Source: a virus
Strand: one strand, 5' to 3'
Length of the DNA: 21,507 bases
Virus record (IMG/VR): IMGVR_UViG_3300021963_000754
Span: 1-21,507 of that record
The position numbers and the translations under genes were made by a program. The notes beneath the pieces are model-generated. The model saw nothing but the letters and a program-made list of their open reading frames with translations, made no database searches and was not told the DNA's origin. Shown piece by piece: positions 1 to 21,507 of the stretch; positions within the stretch are counted from its first letter, which is position 1, and every line of letters starts with the position of its first letter.

Positions 1-1412
1 GAGGGTTTATAGAGCAACTTCGCGTTACTGGTGTAGACCGTGGTGGGCGTGCCTGACGTCGCGGCGGCAAAGATGGGGTAGATGTCGGTCGCGGTTGAGG
101 TATCGTTCGACAGCGCGGACCCTCCCCCAATGGCGGCCCACGCGGCGCCGCTATAACCTTCGAAGGAGGTGGTCGTCGTATTGAACCGCATATACCCCGC
201 CGCAGGACTCGCGTCTCGTTGCGCCGTGGTGCCTGACGGAATGATTTCTGAACCGGTCGCTGCCGAAATGACCGCAAGGGCAATCTTGGCTGCGGCAGCC
301 GTGGTACTGGCCGTGCCGCCTGATGCAACAGGAATGGGCGTGGCAATCGAAGCCGCACTCGCTGCGGCTGCGGCGGCACTACTGGCGGCGGCTGACGCCG
401 AACTGGAGGCTGACGACGCATTTGCGGACGCGCCTTGAATGGCCACAATGTTGGTGGCATTGGTAGTGACATCAGCACTAATGCCCGCCACGGTCGTCAC
501 GTTCGCGCTAATGCCGGCCACGGTCGTGACGTTGGCACTGATCCCCGCGACCGTATTGACATTTGCGGCATTACTATTGAGGGTCGTAATGGCCGAGGAC
601 ATCCCCGCCACGGTCGTCACGTTCGCGCTAATGCCGGCTACCGTTGTCACATTGGCACTAATACCCGCGACCGTAGTGACATTTGCGGCATTACTATTGA
701 GGGTCGTAATGGCCGAGGACATCCCAACGACCGTCGTGACCGAGGCACTGATCCCAGCCACGGTGGTGACATCAGCACTAATGCCCGCCACGGTGGTCAC
801 ATTCGCGCTAATGCCGGCCACGGTAGTCACATTTGCGCTGATCCCAGCCACGGTGGTCACATTCGCTGCAATAGCGGCTACCGTGGCAACATCGGCTAAA
901 TAATTCGTTGTGGTCACCGCCACATCGCCGGTGGTGGCATCAAAACCTAACAGCCGACCAGCACGGGCCACTTTGGCGGGAATCGCACTCAAGGCCGCGC
1001 TGTCGCCGTCGGGTTGCCGAAGTGAGCGGGCCACGAGATCGCGAGTCCGTTGATTGAGCATCGTCTGATAGTCGAAGGCCGCTTCCAAGGCTTCGGCTGG
1101 GAGCGCATCATTGGCGACCAAGTCCGTGGTCTGTGTGGCGGCCGGATCGCGATAGATGGTCCAAGTGACGGTCGCGGCAGGGGCCACGAGCGCGGTGACG
1201 GTGCCGCCACTGCTGTAATGCCCCAGGCTGTCGGTCGAGCCGCTGATCGTATAATCGGTCGTCAGGGCTTGGGTTGTCTGGGCGCCCGTGGCAATAATGG
1301 TCGAAACGACAATGAGATCCGCTTGGGCGAAGAAAGCGTAGGGAAAGCTAAAGGCCGTTGTGACCGCGTTGCCGGTATACACGACGCGATTGGTGGTGCT
1401 CGAAATGGTCAT
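1..1412 (-). CDS. Tail fibre protein, N-terminal part (runs off the left edge)
   Basis: The reading frame is open from an ATG at 1412 to the left edge, so the C-terminus is missing. AGGAG lies five bases upstream of the start. The first ~150 residues (MTISSTTNRVVYTGNAVTTA onward, with FSFPYAFFAQADLIVV) resemble the N-terminal virion-attachment domain of T7 gp17-type fibres. They are followed by about fifteen 10-residue repeats (consensus ANVTTVAGIS), an Ala/Ser-rich stretch (ASANASSASSSASAASS) typical of a trimeric helical stalk, and the start of a beta-rich region (PSGTTAQRDASPAAGYMRFN) common in fibre shafts. It would be the host-recognition fibre, last gene of the leftward morphogenesis block, 36 bases after the 1130-aa ejection protein. 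The N-terminal domain type and position make the assignment firm; the receptor-binding part is outside the window. Confidence 0.85.
   Translation of the reverse strand, partial: MTISSTTNRVVYTGNAVTTAFSFPYAFFAQADLIVVSTIIATGAQTTQALTTDYTISGSTDSLGHYSSGGTVTALVAPAATVTWTIYRDPAATQTTDLVANDALPAEALEAAFDYQTMLNQRTRDLVARSLRQPDGDSAALSAIPAKVARAGRLLGFDATTGDVAVTTTNYLADVATVAAIAANVTTVAGISANVTTVAGISANVTTVAGISADVTTVAGISASVTTVVGMSSAITTLNSNAANVTTVAGISANVTTVAGISANVTTVAGMSSAITTLNSNAANVNTVAGISANVTTVAGISANVTTVAGISADVTTNATNIVAIQGASANASSASSSASAAASSAAAAAASAASIATPIPVASGGTASTTAAAAKIALAVISAATGSEIIPSGTTAQRDASPAAGYMRFNTTTTSFEGYSGAAWAAIGGGSALSNDTSTATDIYPIFAAATSGTPTTVYTSNAKLLYKP
447..896 (-). repeat. In-frame 30-bp (10-residue) tandem repeats in the tail fibre
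   Basis: About fifteen consecutive 30-bp units encode decads of the form ANVTTVAGIS, with two variant decads SAITTLNSNA. A 49-bp stretch is identical at 557-605 and 677-725, exactly 120 bp (four units) apart, showing block duplication inside the array. The plus strand is also open across it, but this is a by-product of repeat composition. Confidence 0.9.
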
Positions 1413-1448: not shown

Positions 1449-4400
1449 CTACTTCTCATAGGCCAACCGACGCTGCAATTCACCAATGGCCGCCTGCGTG
1501 ACCGCGGGATCTTGCCCCGCCACCAGTTGGGCGTGTGCATAATCACGCGACGCTTTGAACGTCTGCTCAAACATCATCCGCTTCACCAGTTTGGGGTAGG
1601 TGTCCCAGTTGGGCTGGTCCACCAGGGGTTGCAAGATACGGTAGGCCAGTTGCCCAGATTGCGTGGCAAAGCCATCGCGTTGTTCGGGCGTCAGTCGGAC
1701 GAGATCCAAGGTGCCCAGTTTGGCGTTCGGAATCGTGTCCAAGGTTTTAGGAATGGTCGGGGTGGCGAAGCCAATCCGACTGGCTTCCAGACGCACTTTG
1801 TCGGTCGCAGCGGACGAGACCGTAAACGGGCTCCCCACCCATAACCGTTCCGGTGACGCGATCGGTTGGCCAAAGAGGTCTTTTTGCGGCATGAGTCCTT
1901 CCCGCATCAGCGGAATCCGAGCGCGCATGGCCTCCTGCATGCCGTGAATTTCTCGCATCAACGGGTCCCGATCGGCGGCGGTTTGACCGATGATAGAGGG
2001 GACCAGGGAGCCGGCCAACGACTCAAAATAGTTTTCCCCATATCGACTCGGGTCTTGAAGGACATTGACCAGGTTGGTCAAACCCGTCATGGACGACTGA
2101 TTGGTGGCGACATTGGCAAAAGCAAAAGCCAGCATCCGTGCCCATTGGTCATGCTCTTCGCTCGTCATATAATTCCAAAATTCGTGCATATCGACGGCGG
2201 CGCCCATGACGGGTCCGATGGGGGCCATGCGAAGATAGCCATCATAGTATTGCCCGTCCATTTTGATCGCGTAGGGTTTCCACCCGGCGGCTTTATCGGT
2301 GGCCCGAAGACGTTTGTCAGGTTGTCCACCTCCCGTAATCAGTCCGTCGCTGGCCGCCGCCACCACGGCGGTCATCAGGGCGGCGCCGAGCAGGGTTTCT
2401 GCCATCGCTCGATCGCGGCGGATGCCTCCGGCTTCGTAGTCTGCGCGCCATTCACGCACAAGGAAATTCGCGCCGGGCGTCATCCGCGCCGTTTCTTTGA
2501 AAATATTGCCTGGCGTGGTTAAGAAGGGGAAGATCCACTCTAGTCCCCATTCCCGTACCGTCCGCTGGAAGGCTTGCCCACCCGGTCCAAGCGGCGTGGT
2601 AAAGATGCGACGATCCCCCTCGATACGGGCGGCCTCCTGCATGGCGGGCGTGGGGTGATCGACGAGGGATACGACCCGCGCCATAAAGCGTGGATCGCGC
2701 ATCGGGATCTGTTCGAGAAGAGTTTGGCGCGTGGCCTGCGCATAGAGTTCTCCCCGTTCATTCATGGTGCGCAGCATCGCATCGGCCGCCGAGAGTGCAC
2801 GAAACGGGAGTCGCACAATCTCCCCTAAGGTGCCGGGAATGGCTTGTTTGAAGGTGTCGGTTTTTGGACCAGGAGCCTCACCCGTTCGAAGGACGGCGCC
2901 CGCGACGGTCATCCCCTCGCGAATCCCCGCAAGAAGTCCGAGGGCCCGAGCGGGAATCTCTGCATACTCGACGCGCTCCCCGACGGGTCGATTTTGTCCG
3001 ATCACGGCCGCCAGGGCGTCCGTTGGGAGCTTAAGCGTGGTAAAGGCGAGTGTTGAAAGGATGTTAACTTCGTGCGTGCGCAAGCCTGAAACAAGCCCGG
3101 CTTTCCAGGCTTCCACCAACATCTCGCGGGTCGTAGCCTTGGTTGCGGCGGTGGCAAACGCCGCCACTTGCGCGGGCGAATCATACTCGCCCAGTTTCTT
3201 CACCAGCTCACGAACGGACTCAGGGCCGCCATAGCCATTGACCACATCAATCAAGGCTTGCGCGCGGTCCGCTTCGCGTTTTGTGGATTTTAAACTGTTT
3301 AAGGCACGTCCCACATCGGCGCGTTGTCCCAGAAATCCCGCTTGTACCTGTGAGACTTTCTCCACTTGTCCAAGAAAGGTCGCAAGGTCTTCCGGCGTGG
3401 CGGCGTCTCCTTTGGCGAGGAGACTCGCCCGGCTGCGCATGAGATCCTCCATGAACCCCACGGCAAGTTCCTTGCGCGCCAGCAGTTGTGCGGTCGTCGA
3501 GGGTCCGGGTGTTTGGCCTTTCAGAAAGGCGGTGACCGTGTGTTCATCGGCGTGCACCAGATCCGCGAGGACCGAAGCCGCGTCTTCGTGGGACTTCTCC
3601 CAACTCCTGGGACTCCGTTGTTGCGTTTTGATCTGGTCTTCATAGATCGTGGACAGTCTCGACAACGCGCCAGAGACTTCCTCCGTCGTCTGGATGTAGT
3701 TGTAATTCATGTGCGTGGGGCGTGAGGGTTCGCCCGGTGCTTGTGGAATTTCGGCAAAGGGTTGCTCCATGAACGCCCGCGCTTGGGCCTGCTGTTCAGG
3801 GGTCAACGTCGGGGCGGGCGTGTCTTTCGGGGTCGCGAGCAGCGCATCAATCCGTTGGGCTTGTGTCTGGGGACTTGGCGGCGTCTCTACGTGTCCTTTG
3901 TAGGCGTCTGGCATCCGTCCGTCCAGCACGTCCTGCCACACGCCCTTCTCCCCGTGCATCGCATCCGTCATCAGTTGCTCAGGCATGATCCCTGTTTTGG
4001 TATAAATGTCCGTAATGGGTGTAGCCTGGGACCAAGACGGCATGACCGCCTTTACCACGCCCAGCACAATCGCCGTATTCAACAAATCGCGGGGTTCTGG
4101 GGCATGACCCTCAATCCGGGCACTTACTTCCGTCAAGGTCGCAAGTTCCGCCGTCGTCGTTAGTATGGGGTTCCACGCGCCAGGAAGAGCACTAGTGGAT
4201 CGGGACGCCAGCGCGCCGACGCCGGCGGTCGTGGCACCCACGACCCATCCTTTGGCCGTTTCAATAATGGTGCCTGCGGCGCGATCCGCAAACTCCTTTT
4301 TTGTGCCGACTTCATTTTGCATGAGGGCGTCCACAAAGGTCTGCCGGAGACCTGCGGCCAAGCCAAATCCTCCCGCCGCCGCCGTCACGGGGCTCAAAGG

Positions 4401-4841
4401 ACCGCCTCCGAGGGCGGCGCCGGTTACAAAGGCGGGTGCGTCACTGGCTAACCCGGCAAGCGTGCCCGCCGCTTGTAACGCCCACGGCATCTCGTTAGAC
4501 AACGCTTGTGCCGGCAATCGACCCGCGGACTTGTCCTTGAGCATTTCCCGCCCAAGCCCCATTGCGCCCCAGTTCCATCCGGTGGCGATTGCCTCTGCGA
4601 GCGTCGTGGGTGCCGGTCGCGAGGAAAGGACTGCATGACCGGGTGCCGCGACGGCATTCGTATTGAAGGGATTGGGCTGTTTGAGATAGTCGTCAATTGC
4701 GGTTTGCGCCTCCAGCGTGGAATAACCCGCAGCCTGGGCCTCTTGCATCTTCTGCGACATCGCCGCGTGAATTTCTTCGGGGCTATAGCCGTGATTGAGC
4801 GCATCAGCCATTGGCGGTGCAGGTGGCATCGTGCGTGGCAT
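1449..4841 (-). CDS. Large internal virion / DNA-ejection protein (T7 gp16 position), 1130 aa
   Basis: This is the largest gene of the window and precedes the fibre gene, the place of gp16 in T7-like phages. The N-terminus has two GYS-type helical motifs (GYSPEEIHAAM at about 18-28 and GYSTLEAQTAIDDYL at about 39-53), a signature seen in many podovirus internal proteins. Hydrophobic, Gly/Ala-rich segments lie near residues 120-165 and 812-836. Around 767-784 is LEWIFPFLTTPGNIFKE, of the FPF..TP.NI type recurrent in large phage ejection or polyvalent proteins. These segments suit a protein that inserts into the host envelope during DNA delivery. I see no convincing lytic transglycosylase motif, unlike T7 gp16. 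The start overlaps the previous stop by one base (TAATG). The role is inferred from position, size and these segments. Confidence 0.7.
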   Translation of the reverse strand: MPRTMPPAPPMADALNHGYSPEEIHAAMSQKMQEAQAAGYSTLEAQTAIDDYLKQPNPFNTNAVAAPGHAVLSSRPAPTTLAEAIATGWNWGAMGLGREMLKDKSAGRLPAQALSNEMPWALQAAGTLAGLASDAPAFVTGAALGGGPLSPVTAAAGGFGLAAGLRQTFVDALMQNEVGTKKEFADRAAGTIIETAKGWVVGATTAGVGALASRSTSALPGAWNPILTTTAELATLTEVSARIEGHAPEPRDLLNTAIVLGVVKAVMPSWSQATPITDIYTKTGIMPEQLMTDAMHGEKGVWQDVLDGRMPDAYKGHVETPPSPQTQAQRIDALLATPKDTPAPTLTPEQQAQARAFMEQPFAEIPQAPGEPSRPTHMNYNYIQTTEEVSGALSRLSTIYEDQIKTQQRSPRSWEKSHEDAASVLADLVHADEHTVTAFLKGQTPGPSTTAQLLARKELAVGFMEDLMRSRASLLAKGDAATPEDLATFLGQVEKVSQVQAGFLGQRADVGRALNSLKSTKREADRAQALIDVVNGYGGPESVRELVKKLGEYDSPAQVAAFATAATKATTREMLVEAWKAGLVSGLRTHEVNILSTLAFTTLKLPTDALAAVIGQNRPVGERVEYAEIPARALGLLAGIREGMTVAGAVLRTGEAPGPKTDTFKQAIPGTLGEIVRLPFRALSAADAMLRTMNERGELYAQATRQTLLEQIPMRDPRFMARVVSLVDHPTPAMQEAARIEGDRRIFTTPLGPGGQAFQRTVREWGLEWIFPFLTTPGNIFKETARMTPGANFLVREWRADYEAGGIRRDRAMAETLLGAALMTAVVAAASDGLITGGGQPDKRLRATDKAAGWKPYAIKMDGQYYDGYLRMAPIGPVMGAAVDMHEFWNYMTSEEHDQWARMLAFAFANVATNQSSMTGLTNLVNVLQDPSRYGENYFESLAGSLVPSIIGQTAADRDPLMREIHGMQEAMRARIPLMREGLMPQKDLFGQPIASPERLWVGSPFTVSSAATDKVRLEASRIGFATPTIPKTLDTIPNAKLGTLDLVRLTPEQRDGFATQSGQLAYRILQPLVDQPNWDTYPKLVKRMMFEQTFKASRDYAHAQLVAGQDPAVTQAAIGELQRRLAYEK

Positions 4842-7409: not shown

Positions 7410-9755
7410 TTAACGCTCCTGCGTATCCAGATTGGGCATGATCGCCACAATCGTACCGGGTAAGGGTTGATCCATTCTCCAGCACACATAGTTTTCACTA
7501 CTATACCCGCCTTCCCACGCAAAGTCACCTTTATCTCCCGTAAACAGGGGCACCGCCGTATCCGTCAAATCCGCCGACGTGCGGAACGTAATGGGCGTTA
7601 ATTTGCCATACCCTGTACTGTTAAAGTTTGCTCCCACCGACAGTCCCCCCGTATCATGCAACCGGAAGAACACGCGATGGCTGCGCATGGTTTGTCCTTG
7701 GGCTGTCCCCTTGGCTGCGCCAGATTCAGGACGCAAACTTTGCCCATCGCTGTCATACGCATACCCGATTTGTACGGTAGACGCCGTCCGAGTCAACGTT
7801 ATTACGCCGAGCGCACTCACAACCACATCGGGATGCACTGCCCCATCGGCCAAAATTGACACGGTCTCGCCCGCCAAGTGAAACAATCCCGTGATCGTAG
7901 CTGTGGCGCTGCCAGAGTAGGTTAATCCACCATCTACATAAAAAGCGTCCGCTTGAGCGTCGCCATGTTCCCAAATCCTCGTCATGTATTCAATATGCCG
8001 AACACTTCGCCCATTAATGTACCGTTGCACCACTAGCCAGACTTCATCGCGCAGCCCGTCTGAGGACGGAATCACCGTGACCGATTCCACTTTTGCCGCG
8101 GTGGTATGCCCCGCATTGGCATAGCCCCCCAACGTATGCCGATGCCATCCCATCACTTTATCGGCACGCGAATAACTAAATCCCAAAAGCAAGCCATCAT
8201 TGCGAATACCCCAAATGACCTTTACCCGCTTCTTTTGATAGGCAAACTCTTTGACACCAGACGTGGCGTCACTTGCCGATTTGGTCACATGCTCCGCAAG
8301 GATCGTGAGATCGGCCCCCTCCACCGCATTATCTTGATATGAATAGTTCAGCTCGTAGATTTCTCGTCCGCCGGCGGCAATGTGAATAATGGCATTACCA
8401 ATTTTCAATGGCGCCACATCTAAACTGCCGATGGAGGTGGATTGTTTGGCATTGACGTTGGTGGGCTTAATGGCTTCGCCTAACGCCGAGGGGCTGACCA
8501 GCCACTCCCCCTCATAGGTGCCAATGACAATACCATTTGCGGTGCCCTTCATCCAGCGCATGGCTTGCACATCGTCGCTATTGAGTGTAAAACTGACGGC
8601 ATTGTCATCCGCCACCGTGCCATCGGTTTTTGTCACCGCAAAATTCACATAGTCAGACACTTTTGAGCCATCCATCCGGCCCGGTTTGTAGGACACACCG
8701 CCTAGATAGAGTCGATCCCCGAAAAACGTGCCGCAGGTGGGATAATAGCCGGTGGTGATGCCGTAATAGAGTCCAAGTCGCCAGTCCGTTTTTGCCGCCA
8801 CGCTCGTCAAGGTATTAATGATTGTGACGGTCACGACCGTCGTGGAGGTATAGCCGGTTACAAGCACGTAGCCCCACGTCGTGCCTTGCAAAAGCCGAAT
8901 GTAGCGCCCCACATCTTCCGCGCTAAATCCAAGGTCACTATTAATTCCCGTAATGGCCGAGGCGGTCAGCGTCACGCCGGCACCAGGAGCAAAGGCGCTA
9001 GGCGTCAACGTTGTCGGGGTAGCATTTAGGGGCAGATAGGGACCATCAAGCAGTACCATGTCGGCCAACGTCCACGACGTATCGGACGCACGGGTCAAAG
9101 TCGCGGGAGCGTGCTGCGGGTGAAAAATGTAGAGGGTATCCGCCGACTGCACAAATTTGAGCGCAAAGATTTGAGCCGCGGTATAGGTCGTGGTGAGAGT
9201 GTACACTTCGGCCACGGTCCCCCCGGAAGACCAGGCCGTGTACGCCGTGCTATTGACATTTGTGCCATCAACAAGTTGCAGTTCAAAGGTGTTGGCCCCA
9301 GCGTTGACATTTGCCACCTTGAACCGTCGGCCATTTACCTGGGTCATGCCAACGACGGAGACGATATTGACGTGGTCACCGTTGGCATAGGTATCCGCAC
9401 CGGCATACGTTAGGACGGCGGGATTGGCTTGGGTAATGCCCGTGATGTTCTGCGTCGCGAGATTGACCGAACCCCCATTTTTCTTAAAGCGAACATAGTT
9501 GTGACCAAACTCGAGCACATACGCTTGGACGGTGGAATACTTGAACCCCACCACGCGTGTGGCCTGCGTCGAGTCTTTGGCTTCATCACAAAAGTAGGTG
9601 CCAGGACGTCGAGTGAGGGGACCTTGCACCAACGGGATCATATTCAGGCACGTAGCCAAAGACGATTTGTACCGATCAAAATCGACCCGCCCATACATCA
9701 GGGGTGAGATTTCGCCTGTCGTGAAACTCGTCTGGATCGGGTTTGCACCTGGCAT
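7410..9755 (-). CDS. Tail tubular protein B / tail nozzle protein (T7 gp12-like), 781 aa
   Basis: The N-terminus PIQTSFTTGEISPLMYGRVD, followed by YKSSLATCLNMIPLVQGPLTRRPGT, is the hallmark of podovirus nozzle proteins (F..GE.SP...GR.D...Y..g...c.N......G...RRPGT). The rest is long and beta-rich with repeated ATITGL/VTVT strands, ending WRMDQPLPGTIVAIMPN. In the virion it would form the distal tail tube below the adaptor ring, to which the fibres attach. The ATG directly abuts the stop codon of tail tubular protein A (TAAATG), so the two are coupled. The length is typical of the family. Confidence 0.88.
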   Translation of the reverse strand: MPGANPIQTSFTTGEISPLMYGRVDFDRYKSSLATCLNMIPLVQGPLTRRPGTYFCDEAKDSTQATRVVGFKYSTVQAYVLEFGHNYVRFKKNGGSVNLATQNITGITQANPAVLTYAGADTYANGDHVNIVSVVGMTQVNGRRFKVANVNAGANTFELQLVDGTNVNSTAYTAWSSGGTVAEVYTLTTTYTAAQIFALKFVQSADTLYIFHPQHAPATLTRASDTSWTLADMVLLDGPYLPLNATPTTLTPSAFAPGAGVTLTASAITGINSDLGFSAEDVGRYIRLLQGTTWGYVLVTGYTSTTVVTVTIINTLTSVAAKTDWRLGLYYGITTGYYPTCGTFFGDRLYLGGVSYKPGRMDGSKVSDYVNFAVTKTDGTVADDNAVSFTLNSDDVQAMRWMKGTANGIVIGTYEGEWLVSPSALGEAIKPTNVNAKQSTSIGSLDVAPLKIGNAIIHIAAGGREIYELNYSYQDNAVEGADLTILAEHVTKSASDATSGVKEFAYQKKRVKVIWGIRNDGLLLGFSYSRADKVMGWHRHTLGGYANAGHTTAAKVESVTVIPSSDGLRDEVWLVVQRYINGRSVRHIEYMTRIWEHGDAQADAFYVDGGLTYSGSATATITGLFHLAGETVSILADGAVHPDVVVSALGVITLTRTASTVQIGYAYDSDGQSLRPESGAAKGTAQGQTMRSHRVFFRLHDTGGLSVGANFNSTGYGKLTPITFRTSADLTDTAVPLFTGDKGDFAWEGGYSSENYVCWRMDQPLPGTIVAIMPNLDTQER

Positions 9756-10469: not shown

Positions 10470-11042
10470 TCAGTATTCGTAGTCTCCTATGTGCGTGGCG
10501 GCGATGGTGGGATCGCACCAGGTCTCAATGCCGACTGACCGCGCTTGTCGGGCAAACCAGACGGCATCATCAATGAACAGTCCTTCGGGCGTGTACGCCG
10601 TACAAAACCACGGAGTCGGGATTCGGCGCAAGGCGTCGGTGCGAATGAGTTGACAGCCTGAACCGATGGCATAACAGGCAAAGAGGTCGGTGGGCAGTGG
10701 TCCAGTCGGAATGCCGACCGTGCCGGCCGCGTCGTGAATGCGGACGGTCGTTTGCAGCGGAAGTCCCCGTCGATTGTACGCGGCACCCACGATGTCGCCA
10801 TGATGGGCGAGCAGCCGTTCCCACGCATCGGACGGAAAGCGCATGTCGGCATCGACGAGCCATAGGTGGGAATACCCTCCCTCGACCGCTTCCTGCGCCA
10901 AGGCGTTCCGATTTTCCGGTCCCAACGCCCCTTCCACAAACACCGTCGTCACCTCGGGGTGCCGCATCGCGGCAAGAACAGATTGCACGGTCTTGGCCTT
11001 GATGCTTCCCCCACACGGAATGCCCAACAGAATCTTTTGCAT
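10470..11042 (-). CDS. Glycosyltransferase, GT-A fold (phage family), 190 aa
   Basis: The N-terminus MQKILLGIPCGGSIKAKTVQ matches the first strand and loop of small phage nucleotide-sugar transferases. It is followed by ENRNALAQEA and LWLVDADMRFP at about 60-70, where DAD (64-66) is the DXD metal/nucleotide-sugar motif of GT-A enzymes, and DIVGAAYNRRG at about 83-93. GLFIDDAVWFARQAR near the C-terminus resembles the catalytic-base region. The substrate cannot be told; plausible acceptors are virion proteins or the host surface. It is embedded between head genes and tail genes. I choose the ATG at 11042; a GTG at 11060 is in frame but has no better ribosome site. The ribosome site at 11042 is itself weak, so translation may be low. 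Confidence 0.75.
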   Translation of the reverse strand: MQKILLGIPCGGSIKAKTVQSVLAAMRHPEVTTVFVEGALGPENRNALAQEAVEGGYSHLWLVDADMRFPSDAWERLLAHHGDIVGAAYNRRGLPLQTTVRIHDAAGTVGIPTGPLPTDLFACYAIGSGCQLIRTDALRRIPTPWFCTAYTPEGLFIDDAVWFARQARSVGIETWCDPTIAATHIGDYEY

Positions 11043-11089
11043 GGAGCCTAGCCGCGGCACGCGTGTGCGCGCGAATGTGTGCGTTGCCC

Positions 11090-18639: not shown

Positions 18640-19089
18640 TTAATCAAAGGGGCTGTTGGCTTCCAGTTGCAGAGCCCTGGGCGTGATATCAATCACGCGC
18701 TGTTTCGCGTCAGCAATGGCTGATCCAATGTCAACCAGGGCGTGTTTGACTTCGAGCCGATCGCCGTATTTATTGGGAAATGCCTTCACCACATAAAACC
18801 TGGTACATTCGGCCTTGATACGAAGCAGATTCGGATCGAGATCGGGATTGTCTTCCACTAGTGTTAACAAACTTTCTAAAATCGCTTCGCCGCCGGCTTC
18901 TCGCGCTTGAATGAATCGTTGATTGAATGCAGCATCGGCATTCCGTAACCGTAAAAAAAGATCCGAGGAAATGCCCAGCGTTTCGATGATTCGGCTATAT
19001 GTTTTACCCTCGAACGCTTGTGCGATCGCCGCTTCAACTTTTTCTGCGTCGAGATCCGATACCGTCCTGAGCTTCGGGCCTGATTTCAT
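18640..19089 (-). CDS. Terminase small subunit, 149 aa
   Basis: This DNA-recognition subunit of the packaging motor is inferred from its position right before the large subunit and from sequence. The N-terminal half has a helix-turn-helix (YSRIIETLGISSDLFLRLRN, about 31-50) followed by FNQRFIQAREAGGEAILESL. The C-terminal half has DNPDLDPNLLRIKAECTRFY and FPNKYGDRLEVKH. The order HTH, f...y..AR..., D......R.k.....w, P..YG is typical of Sf6-like small terminases. It is the first gene of the leftward block and diverges from the amidoligase cassette. The ATG at 19089 has only a GGGG nearby, so translation signals are weak; see the divergent region for a possible promoter. Confidence 0.8.
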   Translation of the reverse strand: MKSGPKLRTVSDLDAEKVEAAIAQAFEGKTYSRIIETLGISSDLFLRLRNADAAFNQRFIQAREAGGEAILESLLTLVEDNPDLDPNLLRIKAECTRFYVVKAFPNKYGDRLEVKHALVDIGSAIADAKQRVIDITPRALQLEANSPFD

Positions 19090-19214
19090 ACAGGCCCCAT
19101 AGCATAAAGTTCAACGCTCCGTCAATAGCCCTGGAACAAGACGTTGACTCCTTGTATCCTTTGTGGATACACTCCCGCTTGACAGGGCCATACAACACTA
19201 ACCAGGGGGGTACT
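19090..19214. promoter_or_regulatory. Divergent promoter region between terminase and the amidoligase cassette
   Basis: These 125 bases separate the leftward and rightward transcription units. On plus, TTGACT (19144-19149) with GATACA (19166-19171) at 16-bp spacing is a plausible though imperfect promoter for the 39-aa gene. On minus, TTGACG (19120-19125) with TATGGG (19096-19101) at 18 bp could serve the small terminase, but would put the start almost on its ATG. The 12-mer AGACGTTGACTC at 19139-19150 recurs at 18544-18555. Confidence 0.4.
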
Positions 19215-19334
19215 ATGAAACGGTACGAAACACAAGTCGAACGGGCCGAACGATCAACACGCCATGCGAACGCGCTGTGCTACGCGCTGCTTGGTCTATT
19301 AGCCTTGCTGGTAGTGTTTATTTATTCGCGTTAG
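19215..19334 (+). CDS. Single-pass membrane mini-protein, 39 aa
   Basis: The protein begins MKRYETQVERAERSTRHANA: a charged N-terminus of about 20 residues, then the hydrophobic stretch LCYALLGLLALLVVFIY and a final Ser-Arg. This is a simple one-helix membrane protein, probably N-terminus in the cytoplasm by the positive-inside rule. The GGGGGG run six bases before the ATG can serve as ribosome site. It is the first gene of the plus-strand cassette, 23 bases before the amidoligase. It could be a membrane anchor or regulator for the neighbouring enzymes, or a holin-like or superinfection peptide. Nothing in the sequence decides between these. Confidence 0.55.
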   Translation: MKRYETQVERAERSTRHANALCYALLGLLALLVVFIYSR

Positions 19335-19357
19335 CTTTTAACTGCAAAGGGGACGCT

Positions 19358-20458
19358 ATGCCAGATGTAACTGATGACGCGCCAACGGTAGTTTCCATTG
19401 AACACACGCAATGCGAACGCTGCGCAGAAGAAATGCCGAATGGTTGCGTGTGTCGAGATTGCGAAAACTGTGGCGAATCTTTCTTTTATGAAGACGCAGA
19501 AACGTGTTGCGAAGACTATTGCTCGTACCGCTGCGCAGAGCGAAACAGTCACTACCATTGCGAATGTGGCGAAACACAGAGTGACTTTGCGCAAACGTGT
19601 TCGGATTGCGGACGGGGCGAATGTTGTCGAGAATTTAGCTGCGGGAATGCTAGCTGTTATTTGTGCGAACGCTGTTGCACGTGTAGTTATGACGATACAG
19701 AAGAAGCAGACGCGCAGTCCGCGTATATTCGGCATTCTTCATGCCGAACATATCCCACTAGCAATCCTACACGCGCGCCCTACACGCCTTTTTTGTTCTC
19801 CGGCGTTGAATTGGAGCTTGAGTGCGAAGATCGAGCCGAACGCGATCAAGTGGCTGCTGATTTGCAAGTGCACGCGCACCAAATTTTACTGAAAGAAGAT
19901 GGCTCGCTTAGTTGTGGCTTTGAAATTGTCACAGGGAAAAACAGCTTGGAAGCCCAACAGGCGTTATGGCCCTTGGTGGCTGCAGTTGCGCGCAAGTCTG
20001 GAGCGCGCAGCTGGAAACACTCCTCAACCGGCTTGCACGTGCACTTATCCCGCAATTGGTTTTCGCCGTTGACGTTGGGAAAATTTCTGGTCTTCTTAAA
20101 TTCGCCATGCACTCGAGCCCCAATCATTACGTTAGCTGGGAGAGAGTGCCCCAACTATGCTGCGATAAAAGCCAAAAAGTTGACAGATGGTCGCAATATG
20201 TCGAACGGGCGTTATGAAGCGGTGAACCTTACCAATGCCGCGACGATTGAAGTTCGCATTTTTAAGGGTACGCTCAATACCGACCATATTCTCGCTGATA
20301 TTGAATTCTGCTACGCAGCAGCATATTGGGCTGCGCAAGTGTCCGCGACCGAATGCGAATCATGGGAGAATTTTTGGGCGTACGTGCTAGCCCATAAAAA
20401 AAATTATCAACACTTGGTTACGTTTTTCGCCTCTCATTTAATTGGAAAGGAAAGCTAA
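19358..20458 (+). CDS. Amidoligase (Amidoligase_2 type, glutamine-synthetase-like fold) with Cys-rich N-terminus, 366 aa
   Basis: Residues ~145-335 carry the signature of ATP-dependent carboxylate-amine ligases of the Amidoligase_2 family: FSGVELELE (147-155, the GxExE metal/ATP strand), LKEDGSL...GFEIVTG (178-193), STGLHVHLS (223-231, the GxHVH motif), and GRYEAVNL (284-291) followed by TIEVRIFKGT (296-305). The family forms amide or peptide-like bonds on small molecules, proteins or cell-wall material; the substrate here is unknown. Residues 19-129 hold 23 cysteines, many as CxxC, CxC or CC, suggesting two or more zinc-binding modules that could recognise the target. The start at 19358 is set by AAAGGGG seven bases upstream; an earlier in-frame ATG at 19277 lacks one. 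The glutamine amidotransferase gene follows after four bases. By eye, base composition is less GC-rich than the structural genes. Confidence 0.85.
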   Translation: MPDVTDDAPTVVSIEHTQCERCAEEMPNGCVCRDCENCGESFFYEDAETCCEDYCSYRCAERNSHYHCECGETQSDFAQTCSDCGRGECCREFSCGNASCYLCERCCTCSYDDTEEADAQSAYIRHSSCRTYPTSNPTRAPYTPFLFSGVELELECEDRAERDQVAADLQVHAHQILLKEDGSLSCGFEIVTGKNSLEAQQALWPLVAAVARKSGARSWKHSSTGLHVHLSRNWFSPLTLGKFLVFLNSPCTRAPIITLAGRECPNYAAIKAKKLTDGRNMSNGRYEAVNLTNAATIEVRIFKGTLNTDHILADIEFCYAAAYWAAQVSATECESWENFWAYVLAHKKNYQHLVTFFASHLIGKES

Positions 20459-20462
20459 TATT

Positions 20463-21245
20463 ATGTGTCAAGCGATTGTGAAACCCGCTGGATTGCGCAT
20501 CGAGAAAGCCACCCTACAACTGGCCTGGGAGCAGAACGGAGACGGGGCCGGATTTGCAGTTACGCTGCCAGATGGTACGCTGAAGATTGAGAAAGGATTC
20601 TTCACATTCAAACACTTTTGGCGGGAATACGCGCCTTACGAAGCCCTCAATTGTTTGATCCACTTTCGCTTCGCAACACACGGCGAAAAAGAGATCGCGA
20701 ATTGCCATCCCTTCGCCCTGGGGCCGGACGCAGCGATGGTGCACAATGGGATTTTGTCCCGCTTTCTTCCCAGCGTGTTGGATACGCGCAGCGATACCAG
20801 GCTGCTGGTTGAAGATTATCTGATTCCTGCCTGGATCGCGTCTAGCTTATCGGTTCCGGCTTTTTTTGCGCAACCAGGCATGAAAGCCCTAATAGAATCA
20901 TTGATCGATGGAAATAAAATTGCGCTACTCACGCCAGAGGGGTTTACTATTTTCAACGAACGCCTAGGCGAATGGAAAGAGGGTATTTGGTATTCCGCCG
21001 GATTTCCCGCACCATTCTTCGCCTATAACTATGGGCCGATATCTCGCAGCCACTATTCGCCAGGCTATGATGATGAAGTATGGGAACAGGCGTGGGAAGC
21101 CTGGAACGAAGAAGAAGAAGAAGACTTCACGTGCGTGCTCTGCGAAGCCCCAGGCCCCTTGTATCACATAGGCGAAGAGGGCTTGTGCGAACTGTGCTGG
21201 AACGATTACACGCGCCCGATTGCGGCGGATGTCAAGCCATGCTAA
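20463..21245 (+). CDS. Class II glutamine amidotransferase (GATase II), 260 aa, with C-terminal zinc knuckle
   Basis: The protein starts Met-Cys, so after Met removal Cys2 is the N-terminal nucleophile of the Ntn-type glutaminase. Other family motifs are in order: NGDGAGFAV (25-33), IHFRFATHG (66-74, the HxRxAT glutamine-binding strand), NCHPFAL (80-86), MVHNGIL (92-98) and SDTRLL (110-115). It would release ammonia from glutamine. I see no attached synthetase domain, so a partner enzyme should use the ammonia; the adjacent amidoligase is the obvious one. The C-terminus has an acidic run (EEEEED, 216-221) and a CxxC...CxxC zinc knuckle (C224, C227, C242, C245). The start at 20463 fits the required Met-Cys, with GGAAAGGAAAG upstream inside the end of the amidoligase gene. 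Confidence 0.9.
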   Translation: MCQAIVKPAGLRIEKATLQLAWEQNGDGAGFAVTLPDGTLKIEKGFFTFKHFWREYAPYEALNCLIHFRFATHGEKEIANCHPFALGPDAAMVHNGILSRFLPSVLDTRSDTRLLVEDYLIPAWIASSLSVPAFFAQPGMKALIESLIDGNKIALLTPEGFTIFNERLGEWKEGIWYSAGFPAPFFAYNYGPISRSHYSPGYDDEVWEQAWEAWNEEEEEDFTCVLCEAPGPLYHIGEEGLCELCWNDYTRPIAADVKPC

Positions 21246-21331
21246 AACGACTAGCCTGGGGCTTCGCCTGGATCGCCGTGTGGTACGTGTTGACACTCGG
21301 CGTGATACGCTGCTCGCATTGGCACAAGTAA
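21239..21331 (+). CDS. Single-pass membrane mini-protein, 30 aa
   Basis: The frame MLKRLAWGFAWIAVWYVLTL continues GVIRCSHWHK: a positively charged start, about 17 hydrophobic residues rich in Trp, then a Cys/His tail (CSHWH). It overlaps the end of the amidotransferase gene by seven bases, so it can be translated by coupling; no separate strong ribosome site is seen. Together with the 39-aa peptide it brackets the two enzymes with membrane peptides. The small size makes this call less certain, but the clean hydrophobic helix, the overlap and the terminator right after it support a real gene. Confidence 0.45.
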   Translation: MLKRLAWGFAWIAVWYVLTLGVIRCSHWHK

Positions 21332-21341
21332 CCCCCCCCGT

Positions 21342-21374
21342 GACTCTGCCCCTGCATGAAAGGGGTAGAGTCTT
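21342..21374 (+). terminator. Hairpin terminator after the amidoligase cassette
   Basis: GACTCTGCCCCT (21342-21353) pairs with AGGGGTAGAGTC (21361-21372) to give a 12-bp stem with one G-U pair and a 7-base loop, ten bases after the last stop codon. Only two T follow on plus, so termination may be partial, but stem strength and position make an end-of-operon role likely. Confidence 0.6.
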
Positions 21375-21408: not shown

Positions 21409-21420
21409 GCAAAAGCTGCT

Positions 21421-21507
21421 CCGATCCCCTGGTCCGATCCCCTGGTCCGATCCCCTGGTCCGATCCCAGTCCGATCCCCTGGTCCGATCCCAGTCCGATC
21501 CCCTGGT
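21421..21507. repeat. Tandem GATC-containing repeats at the right edge
   Basis: Seven units fill the last 87 bases: CCGATCCCCTGGT (13 bp) three times, CCGATCCCAGT (11 bp), the 13-mer, the 11-mer, and the 13-mer. Every unit contains one GATC. The CCCCTGG part is the reverse complement of CCAGGGG found in the neighbouring 11-bp repeats. The array reaches the end of the window and may continue. It contains no gene. Confidence 0.9.

Follow-up and report, generated by a model that had tools for sequence, protein, structure and literature searches.

Two adjacent viral genes, encoding an amidoligase and a class II glutamine amidotransferase, probably form one glutamine-dependent, ATP-using amide ligase that is divided over two chains and acts on a host molecule. 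This reading follows from protein families and predicted structures, and the pair is a divergent new example of a kind of phage gene set that has already been reported. An earlier note on this DNA had proposed a two-enzyme amide-forming unit carried by a phage, and the profile matches, catalytic residues, folds, nearly obligate pairing and correlated divergence of the two proteins all agree with that proposal. What sets the pair apart a little is that a minimal two-gene unit is combined with cysteine-rich extensions on each of its chains. The earlier note had identified the two genes correctly and judged their chemistry well; it made no mention of the extensions or of the gene sets of this kind already published for phages.

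Layout of the fragment

The window (the whole stretch of DNA analyzed) is a linear fragment of 21,507 bases from a viral record. From about 1.4 kb to 19.1 kb, minus-strand genes make up a podovirus-type late module, with genes for an internal virion protein, tail tubular proteins, a major head protein, a head-tail adaptor (portal), and large and small terminase. The pair lies to the right of the small terminase gene, on the opposite strand, and the contig ends 0.26 kb past the amidotransferase gene. The features of this region are as follows.

18640-19089, minus strand: small terminase gene (phrog_1482, E 9.6e-13), which diverges from the pair and marks the insertion site at the edge of the late module
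19215-19334, plus strand: tentative ORF upstream of the pair for a possible 39-residue membrane-helix-like peptide, with AGGGGGG before the ATG
19358-20458, plus strand: amidoligase gene (Amidoligase_2, predicted glutamine-synthetase-like fold), 366 residues, ATG start, ribosome-binding site AAGGGGA
19358-19792, plus strand: segment for the cysteine-rich, probably zinc-binding N-terminus of the ligase, with 23 Cys in 145 residues and 7 CxxC motifs (direct count)
20463-21245, plus strand: stand-alone class II (Ntn, Cys2) glutamine amidotransferase gene, 260 residues, with an ATG-TGC start giving Met1-Cys2
21239-21331, plus strand: tentative ORF, from sequence only, for a possible 30-residue membrane-helix-like peptide, overlapping the amidotransferase stop
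21342-21372, plus strand: hairpin after the unit, a possible transcript end (RNA fold z -2.6)

Both genes were found where they had been placed before, four bases apart, with a plausible ribosome-binding site ahead of each. The signals proposed around them fared differently. A divergent promoter belonging to the unit was not borne out, as the promoter-like match at 19144-19173 does not exceed what chance would give (3 found versus 3.1 expected). The hairpin proposed as the end of the unit is real as a fold, with a 12-bp stem, but no proper run of T follows it. The composition of the pair had been described as standing apart from that of the virion genes. This is correct for most of them, since third-position GC is 0.49 and 0.57 in the pair versus 0.60-0.73, but the small terminase gene is equally low (0.50). 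Membrane peptides flanking the pair were considered as parts of the system; the downstream ORF is unsupported, with a comparable small ORF after the amidotransferase in 2 of 148 relatives, and the upstream 39-residue ORF had no family match in profile searches. Rfam and tRNA scans of the window gave no matches.

Elsewhere in the window, an open-ended tail-fibre-like frame at 3-1412 (minus strand, at least 470 residues) contains many copies of the 10-residue repeat NVTTVAGISA. At the DNA level the repeat appears as 30-base and 120-base repeats at 478-863. A glycosyltransferase-like gene at 10470-11060 (minus strand; phrog_1574, and weakly phrog_12406) lies within the block of head-tail genes and is without an annotated counterpart at the matching place in the complete genome MW202898. 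At the right end, direct repeats of 13 and 24 bases (TCCGATCCCCTGG) are found at 21416-21507, and the contig breaks within them. They could mark a site of replication or packaging, or a break in the assembly.

The amidoligase

The profile match and the predicted fold both place the ligase in the Amidoligase_2 family, as the earlier note had proposed from its motifs. The protein passes the curated cut-off of Pfam PF12224 (30.3 bits versus 22, E 4.8e-7), and it matches two phage families, phrog_16683 and phrog_2443, of which the second is named amidoligase. A cysteine-rich N-terminus (residues 1-145) precedes the catalytic core (residues 146-366). Residues E153, D181, S183, G187, E189, G225, H227, R262, E298, R300, and F302 are identical in 60 of 60 ligase rows, and by analogy to glutamine synthetase E153, D181, E189, H227, E298, and R300 are likely active-site residues. 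The motifs GVELELE, GLHVHLS, RYEAVNL, and TIEVRIFKGT, on which the initial identification was based, are all present and fall on invariant or well conserved columns.

An AlphaFold model built from the 60-row alignment has a core mostly above pLDDT 90 and an N-terminal region of low confidence. The core has the glutamine-synthetase/glutamate-cysteine-ligase-like fold of Amidoligase_2. Its best PDB match is YbdK (1tt4, Z 13.8); glutamine synthetases match at Z of about 13, with 180-218 residues aligned, and the plant glutamate-cysteine ligase 2gwc at Z 12.8. Given this fold, we take GLHVHLS and IEVRI to resemble metal- and nucleotide-binding motifs of glutamine synthetase. A direct sequence alignment of the ligase with E. 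coli GlnA was not significant, though it placed IEVRI on IEVRF.

The glutamine amidotransferase

The second protein consists of a glutaminase core (residues 1-183) followed by a C-terminal tail. Because it falls below the curated Pfam cut-offs for GATase_4 (19.6 versus 23 bits) and GATase_6 (17 versus 27 bits), it is assigned to the class II (Ntn) superfamily and to neither of these families. The profile of its 57-row family matches the glutaminase domain of GlmS (1xff, E 2e-12) and PurF (6e-7). The protein had been described as a stand-alone Cys2 enzyme with all the expected motifs, and the alignment agrees. Cys2, from the Met-Cys start, is present in 55 of the 55 rows covering that position; R69, T72, G74, H94, N95, G96, and D111 are found in 57 of 57 rows and H73 in 56. 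The catalytic Cys, which removal of Met1 would expose, and the Arg-Thr-His-Gly, Asn-Gly, and Asp glutamine-site motifs of the class II superfamily are thus all present. Both this family and that of the ligase keep their catalytic residues across about 60 relatives each; the loss in homologues that would have spoken against the identification did not occur.

The core of the AlphaFold model built from the 57-row alignment is above pLDDT 93, while the tail is poorly modelled. The core has an Ntn glutaminase fold and scores Z 14.7-14.8 against the glutaminase domain of GlmS, 14.8 against EgtC, and 13.6 against PurF. Since EgtC, a gamma-glutamyl hydrolase, is matched as well as GlmS, it is not certain that the amidotransferase supplies ammonia. 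A fold match alone is no proof of activity, and the conserved residues in both chains agree with the folds.

Cysteine-rich extensions

The sequences of the cysteine-rich extensions on both chains strongly suggest that they are zinc-binding modules. In the amidotransferase tail the CxxC pairs C224/C227 and C242/C245 are zinc-ribbon-like. The N-terminal region of the ligase has a weak RING-like profile match (E 0.028), and none of the curated zinc families in Pfam matched either chain above threshold. Of 83 non-redundant rows, 29 have a cysteine-rich ligase; on the best tree the trait must change seven times. A cysteine-rich partner accompanies 19 of the 29 cysteine-rich ligases and none of the 54 cysteine-poor ones (27 of 39 versus 2 of 91 in raw counts); the association is no proof, since only three independent pairs are testable and independent events are too few.

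Pairing of the two genes in relatives

The amidoligase and amidotransferase genes are nearly always found together in this subfamily. Searching viral contigs with either protein alone brought up no relatives, and alignments were required. With alignments as queries, IMG/VR yielded 471 relatives of the ligase and 139 of the amidotransferase, of which the best 80 of each were kept. The amidotransferase follows the ligase on the same strand in 78 of the best 80 ligase loci, the two exceptions stopping at the contig end, and the ligase adjoins the amidotransferase in 77 of the best 80 amidotransferase loci. Taking the two samples together, most exceptions are loci cut by contig ends. The order is ligase then amidotransferase in 152 of 158 IMG/VR loci. 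The case that would have told against the unit, namely a neighborhood survey without conserved pairing, is therefore absent. Both samples consist of the top matches to profiles that had themselves been built from paired genes, which favors finding pairs, so these figures apply to this subfamily.

For the same reason more distant records were examined, and both genes are present in five of seven. They lie side by side in two unannotated faecal phage records, a mycobacterial plasmid, and a contig binned as Lokiarchaeota, and are separated by one gene in a Bifidobacterium phage. A Microcoleus phage and a Clostridioides phage have the ligase alone, with no amidotransferase found in the flanks searched. 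The pairwise distances of the two proteins are correlated (r 0.84 over 83 pairs; maximum of 0.07 after shuffling), which fits partners but would also be expected if the two were simply inherited together. Phage records searched at the DNA level gave no matches.

Among 84,980 species genomes a single relative turned up, on a contig that has terminase and replication genes and sits in a Lokiarchaeota bin; in this form, the pair is thus mainly viral. The species-genome scan used a four-row alignment whose peptide patterns were not those of the viral scan, and the two counts can be compared only roughly. The matching region of this phage-like contig (L175, 5830-7932) has zinc-finger-like extensions on both chains. 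Should its host be archaeal, which a bin assignment does not establish, a peptidoglycan target would be unlikely there. In two large phage contigs of 214,733 bases (L165) and 365,299 bases (L158), a second amidotransferase-like gene lies about 1.7 kb beyond the first (at 7714-8505 and 7711-8487, respectively), and each has an ATP-grasp gene in its flank.

Genomic setting

The pair is optional cargo at the border of early and late genes. Among relatives with similar terminases, two contigs with about 82% identical large terminase (L168 and L172) and the complete genome MW202898 (63% identical) have other genes at its site, in line with the earlier view of the pair as accessory. The divergent arrangement of terminase genes and pair recurs in a phage with 44% identical large terminase (L076).

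In relatives the pair is usually in the early region, either next to genes for replication or in divergent orientation to the terminase genes. Downstream genes include primase in 55 loci and helicase in 51 of them, and the large terminase lies upstream on the opposite strand in 30, a layout shared by the window. The position of the genes suggests that they are probably expressed early in infection. A virion protein, one of the targets named in the earlier note, is made less likely by this location in the early or replication region of relatives.

Comparison with known phages

The nearest named relatives of the pair are in the Marvin-like mycobacteriophages, Podoviridae sp. ctgrD200, and the OM43 phages. 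In Marvin (gp105 and gp106) and other Marvin-like phages the genes are adjacent and in the same order, and both chains have cysteine-rich extensions; the proteins are about 25-32% identical to those of the window, and phage type and host differ. Marvin gp105 (L004, 5899-7260) aligns with the ligase and gp106 is the amidotransferase. Despite this, many Marvin-like phage records annotate gp105 as a glutamine amidotransferase domain protein. Podoviridae sp. ctgrD200 (MW202733) has the same pair in the same order at 1926-3482 and 3488-4402, with five-base spacing and a cysteine-rich ligase N-terminus. Its core identity to the window is 32%, its amidotransferase is without the CxxC tail, and a phage RNA polymerase gene is nearby. 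The Methylophilales (OM43) phages MEP401 and MEP402 have the same pair in the early region, before primase, helicase, and polymerase. The N-terminus there is longer with few CxxC motifs, and the identities are 29% and 40%. The OM43-type pair is reported in more than 30 related genomes (PMC10580990). The available text of the literature on close relatives reports no activity or substrate of the isolated enzymes.

Possible functions of the pair

In the proposed mechanism, the amidotransferase would hydrolyze glutamine through its N-terminal cysteine and hand the ammonia to the amidoligase, which, like glutamine synthetase, would use ATP to activate a carboxylate and then form a primary amide. 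The cysteine-rich, presumably zinc-binding extensions would probably help the chains to bind each other or the target. Made early, the pair would probably modify a host molecule rather than the virion. The leading guess for this target is a cytoplasmic cell-wall precursor peptide. The MurT/GatD system combines a Mur-ligase fold with a class I amidotransferase, unlike the pair in the window with its glutamine-synthetase-like fold and class II amidotransferase. MurT/GatD, which amidates peptidoglycan in Staphylococcus, is likewise reported to be two-chain and glutamine-dependent (PMC3267633).

Several more specific functions can be weighed. The idea that such phage genes modify peptidoglycan reportedly goes back to Iyer and co-workers in 2009. 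The pair could be a reduced form of the peptidoglycan-modification cassette of LUZ24, phiEco32, and RIO-1, amidating or re-linking cell-wall precursor peptides and so blocking superinfection or rival lysins. This is possible, if doubtful, and as one version of the main reading it overlaps with it in confidence. In LUZ24 the amidoligase gp18 is directly followed by the class II amidotransferase gp19, as in the window, and gp19 by ATP-grasp and gamma-glutamyl cyclotransferase genes. The window thus has the amidoligase with adjacent class II amidotransferase that characterizes the cassette, to which LUZ24, phiEco32, RIO-1, and PSA-HP1 add a COOH-NH2 ligase, ATP-grasp, and gamma-glutamyl cyclotransferase. 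Some or all of the amidoligase, glutamine amidotransferase, ATP-grasp, and cyclotransferase genes are reported in LUZ24, UFV-P2, tf, PaP3, phiEco32, RIO-1, and PSA-HP1. The LUZ24/phiEco32-type genes have been proposed to modify peptidoglycan and hinder superinfection, and a paper on Pseudoalteromonas phages names the set a peptidoglycan modification cassette (PMC5498523). Among 123 loci of relatives with enough flank, ATP-grasp is found in 38 and gamma-glutamyl cyclotransferase in 9, but 76 have neither in the flank. No ATP-grasp, COOH-NH2 ligase, or gamma-glutamyl cyclotransferase gene occurs in the window, but such genes may follow beyond the contig end, which lies only 0.26 kb past the pair. 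Moreover, the LUZ24 proteins are only remotely similar to those of the window (hhalign probabilities of 61% and 90% over short stretches), and the published role, as these sources word it, is a hypothesis rather than a measurement.

The tie of EgtC and GlmS as best fold matches of the amidotransferase (Z 14.8 each) raises an alternative that appears unlikely, in which the second enzyme is a gamma-glutamyl hydrolase like EgtC of ergothioneine synthesis. It would trim a gamma-glutamyl adduct made by the ligase, and the pair would build a small metabolite. The match of the ligase to glutamate-cysteine ligase 2gwc, whose fold is presumably that of EgtA, points the same way. However, the amidotransferase profile finds GlmS and PurF (down to E 2e-12) but, at E 0.01, no chain of EgtC, and other ergothioneine-like genes were not noted beside the pair. 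It is also improbable, though suggested by several features, that the cysteine-rich extensions guide the pair to a macromolecule, either a host protein or a target bound to nucleic acid, whose side chains are amidated early. The 23 cysteines in the ligase N-terminus, the four CxxC cysteines in the partner tail, and the concentration of cysteine-rich partners among cysteine-rich ligases argue for this, as does a structural neighbor named LIM domain protein. On the other side, the association, with three testable pairs, may simply reflect descent, the extension is modelled at low confidence, and many relatives are without it. A bolder form of this idea is quite unlikely: virus-specific, target-guided amidation in which zinc modules dock a host macromolecule early and acidic side chains become amides, disarming or redirecting the target. 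To our knowledge, such viral amidation of acidic side chains on a docked host macromolecule is a kind of protein modification not yet described. Phage genes of this type are described in the literature as a peptidoglycan-modification cassette or as auxiliary metabolic genes, and it is very unlikely that the pair belongs to the latter and aids the assimilation of nitrogen into amino acids by the host during infection. The Planctomycetes phage Phage-ZRK32, which has amidoligase, amidotransferase, glutathione-synthase-like, and cyclotransferase genes, is reported to make its host grow better on nitrate or ammonium (PMC10945688). That effect, as reported, is one of the whole phage and not of single genes, and cysteine-rich extensions with a glutamine-consuming partner are unlike a nitrogen-assimilation step.

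Significance of the pair

The PHROGs families that best match the two proteins, phrog_16683 and phrog_25883, are listed as of unknown function, and the present analysis links them as partners. Among the accessory gene sets of phages the pair is one of the more regular (471 ligase relatives in one scan of viral contigs versus one match in 84,980 cellular species genomes, as roughly comparable counts). The small two-gene form, which has no further enzymes, lends itself well to initial biochemical work on what would be a glutamine-dependent amide ligase acting on a host molecule.
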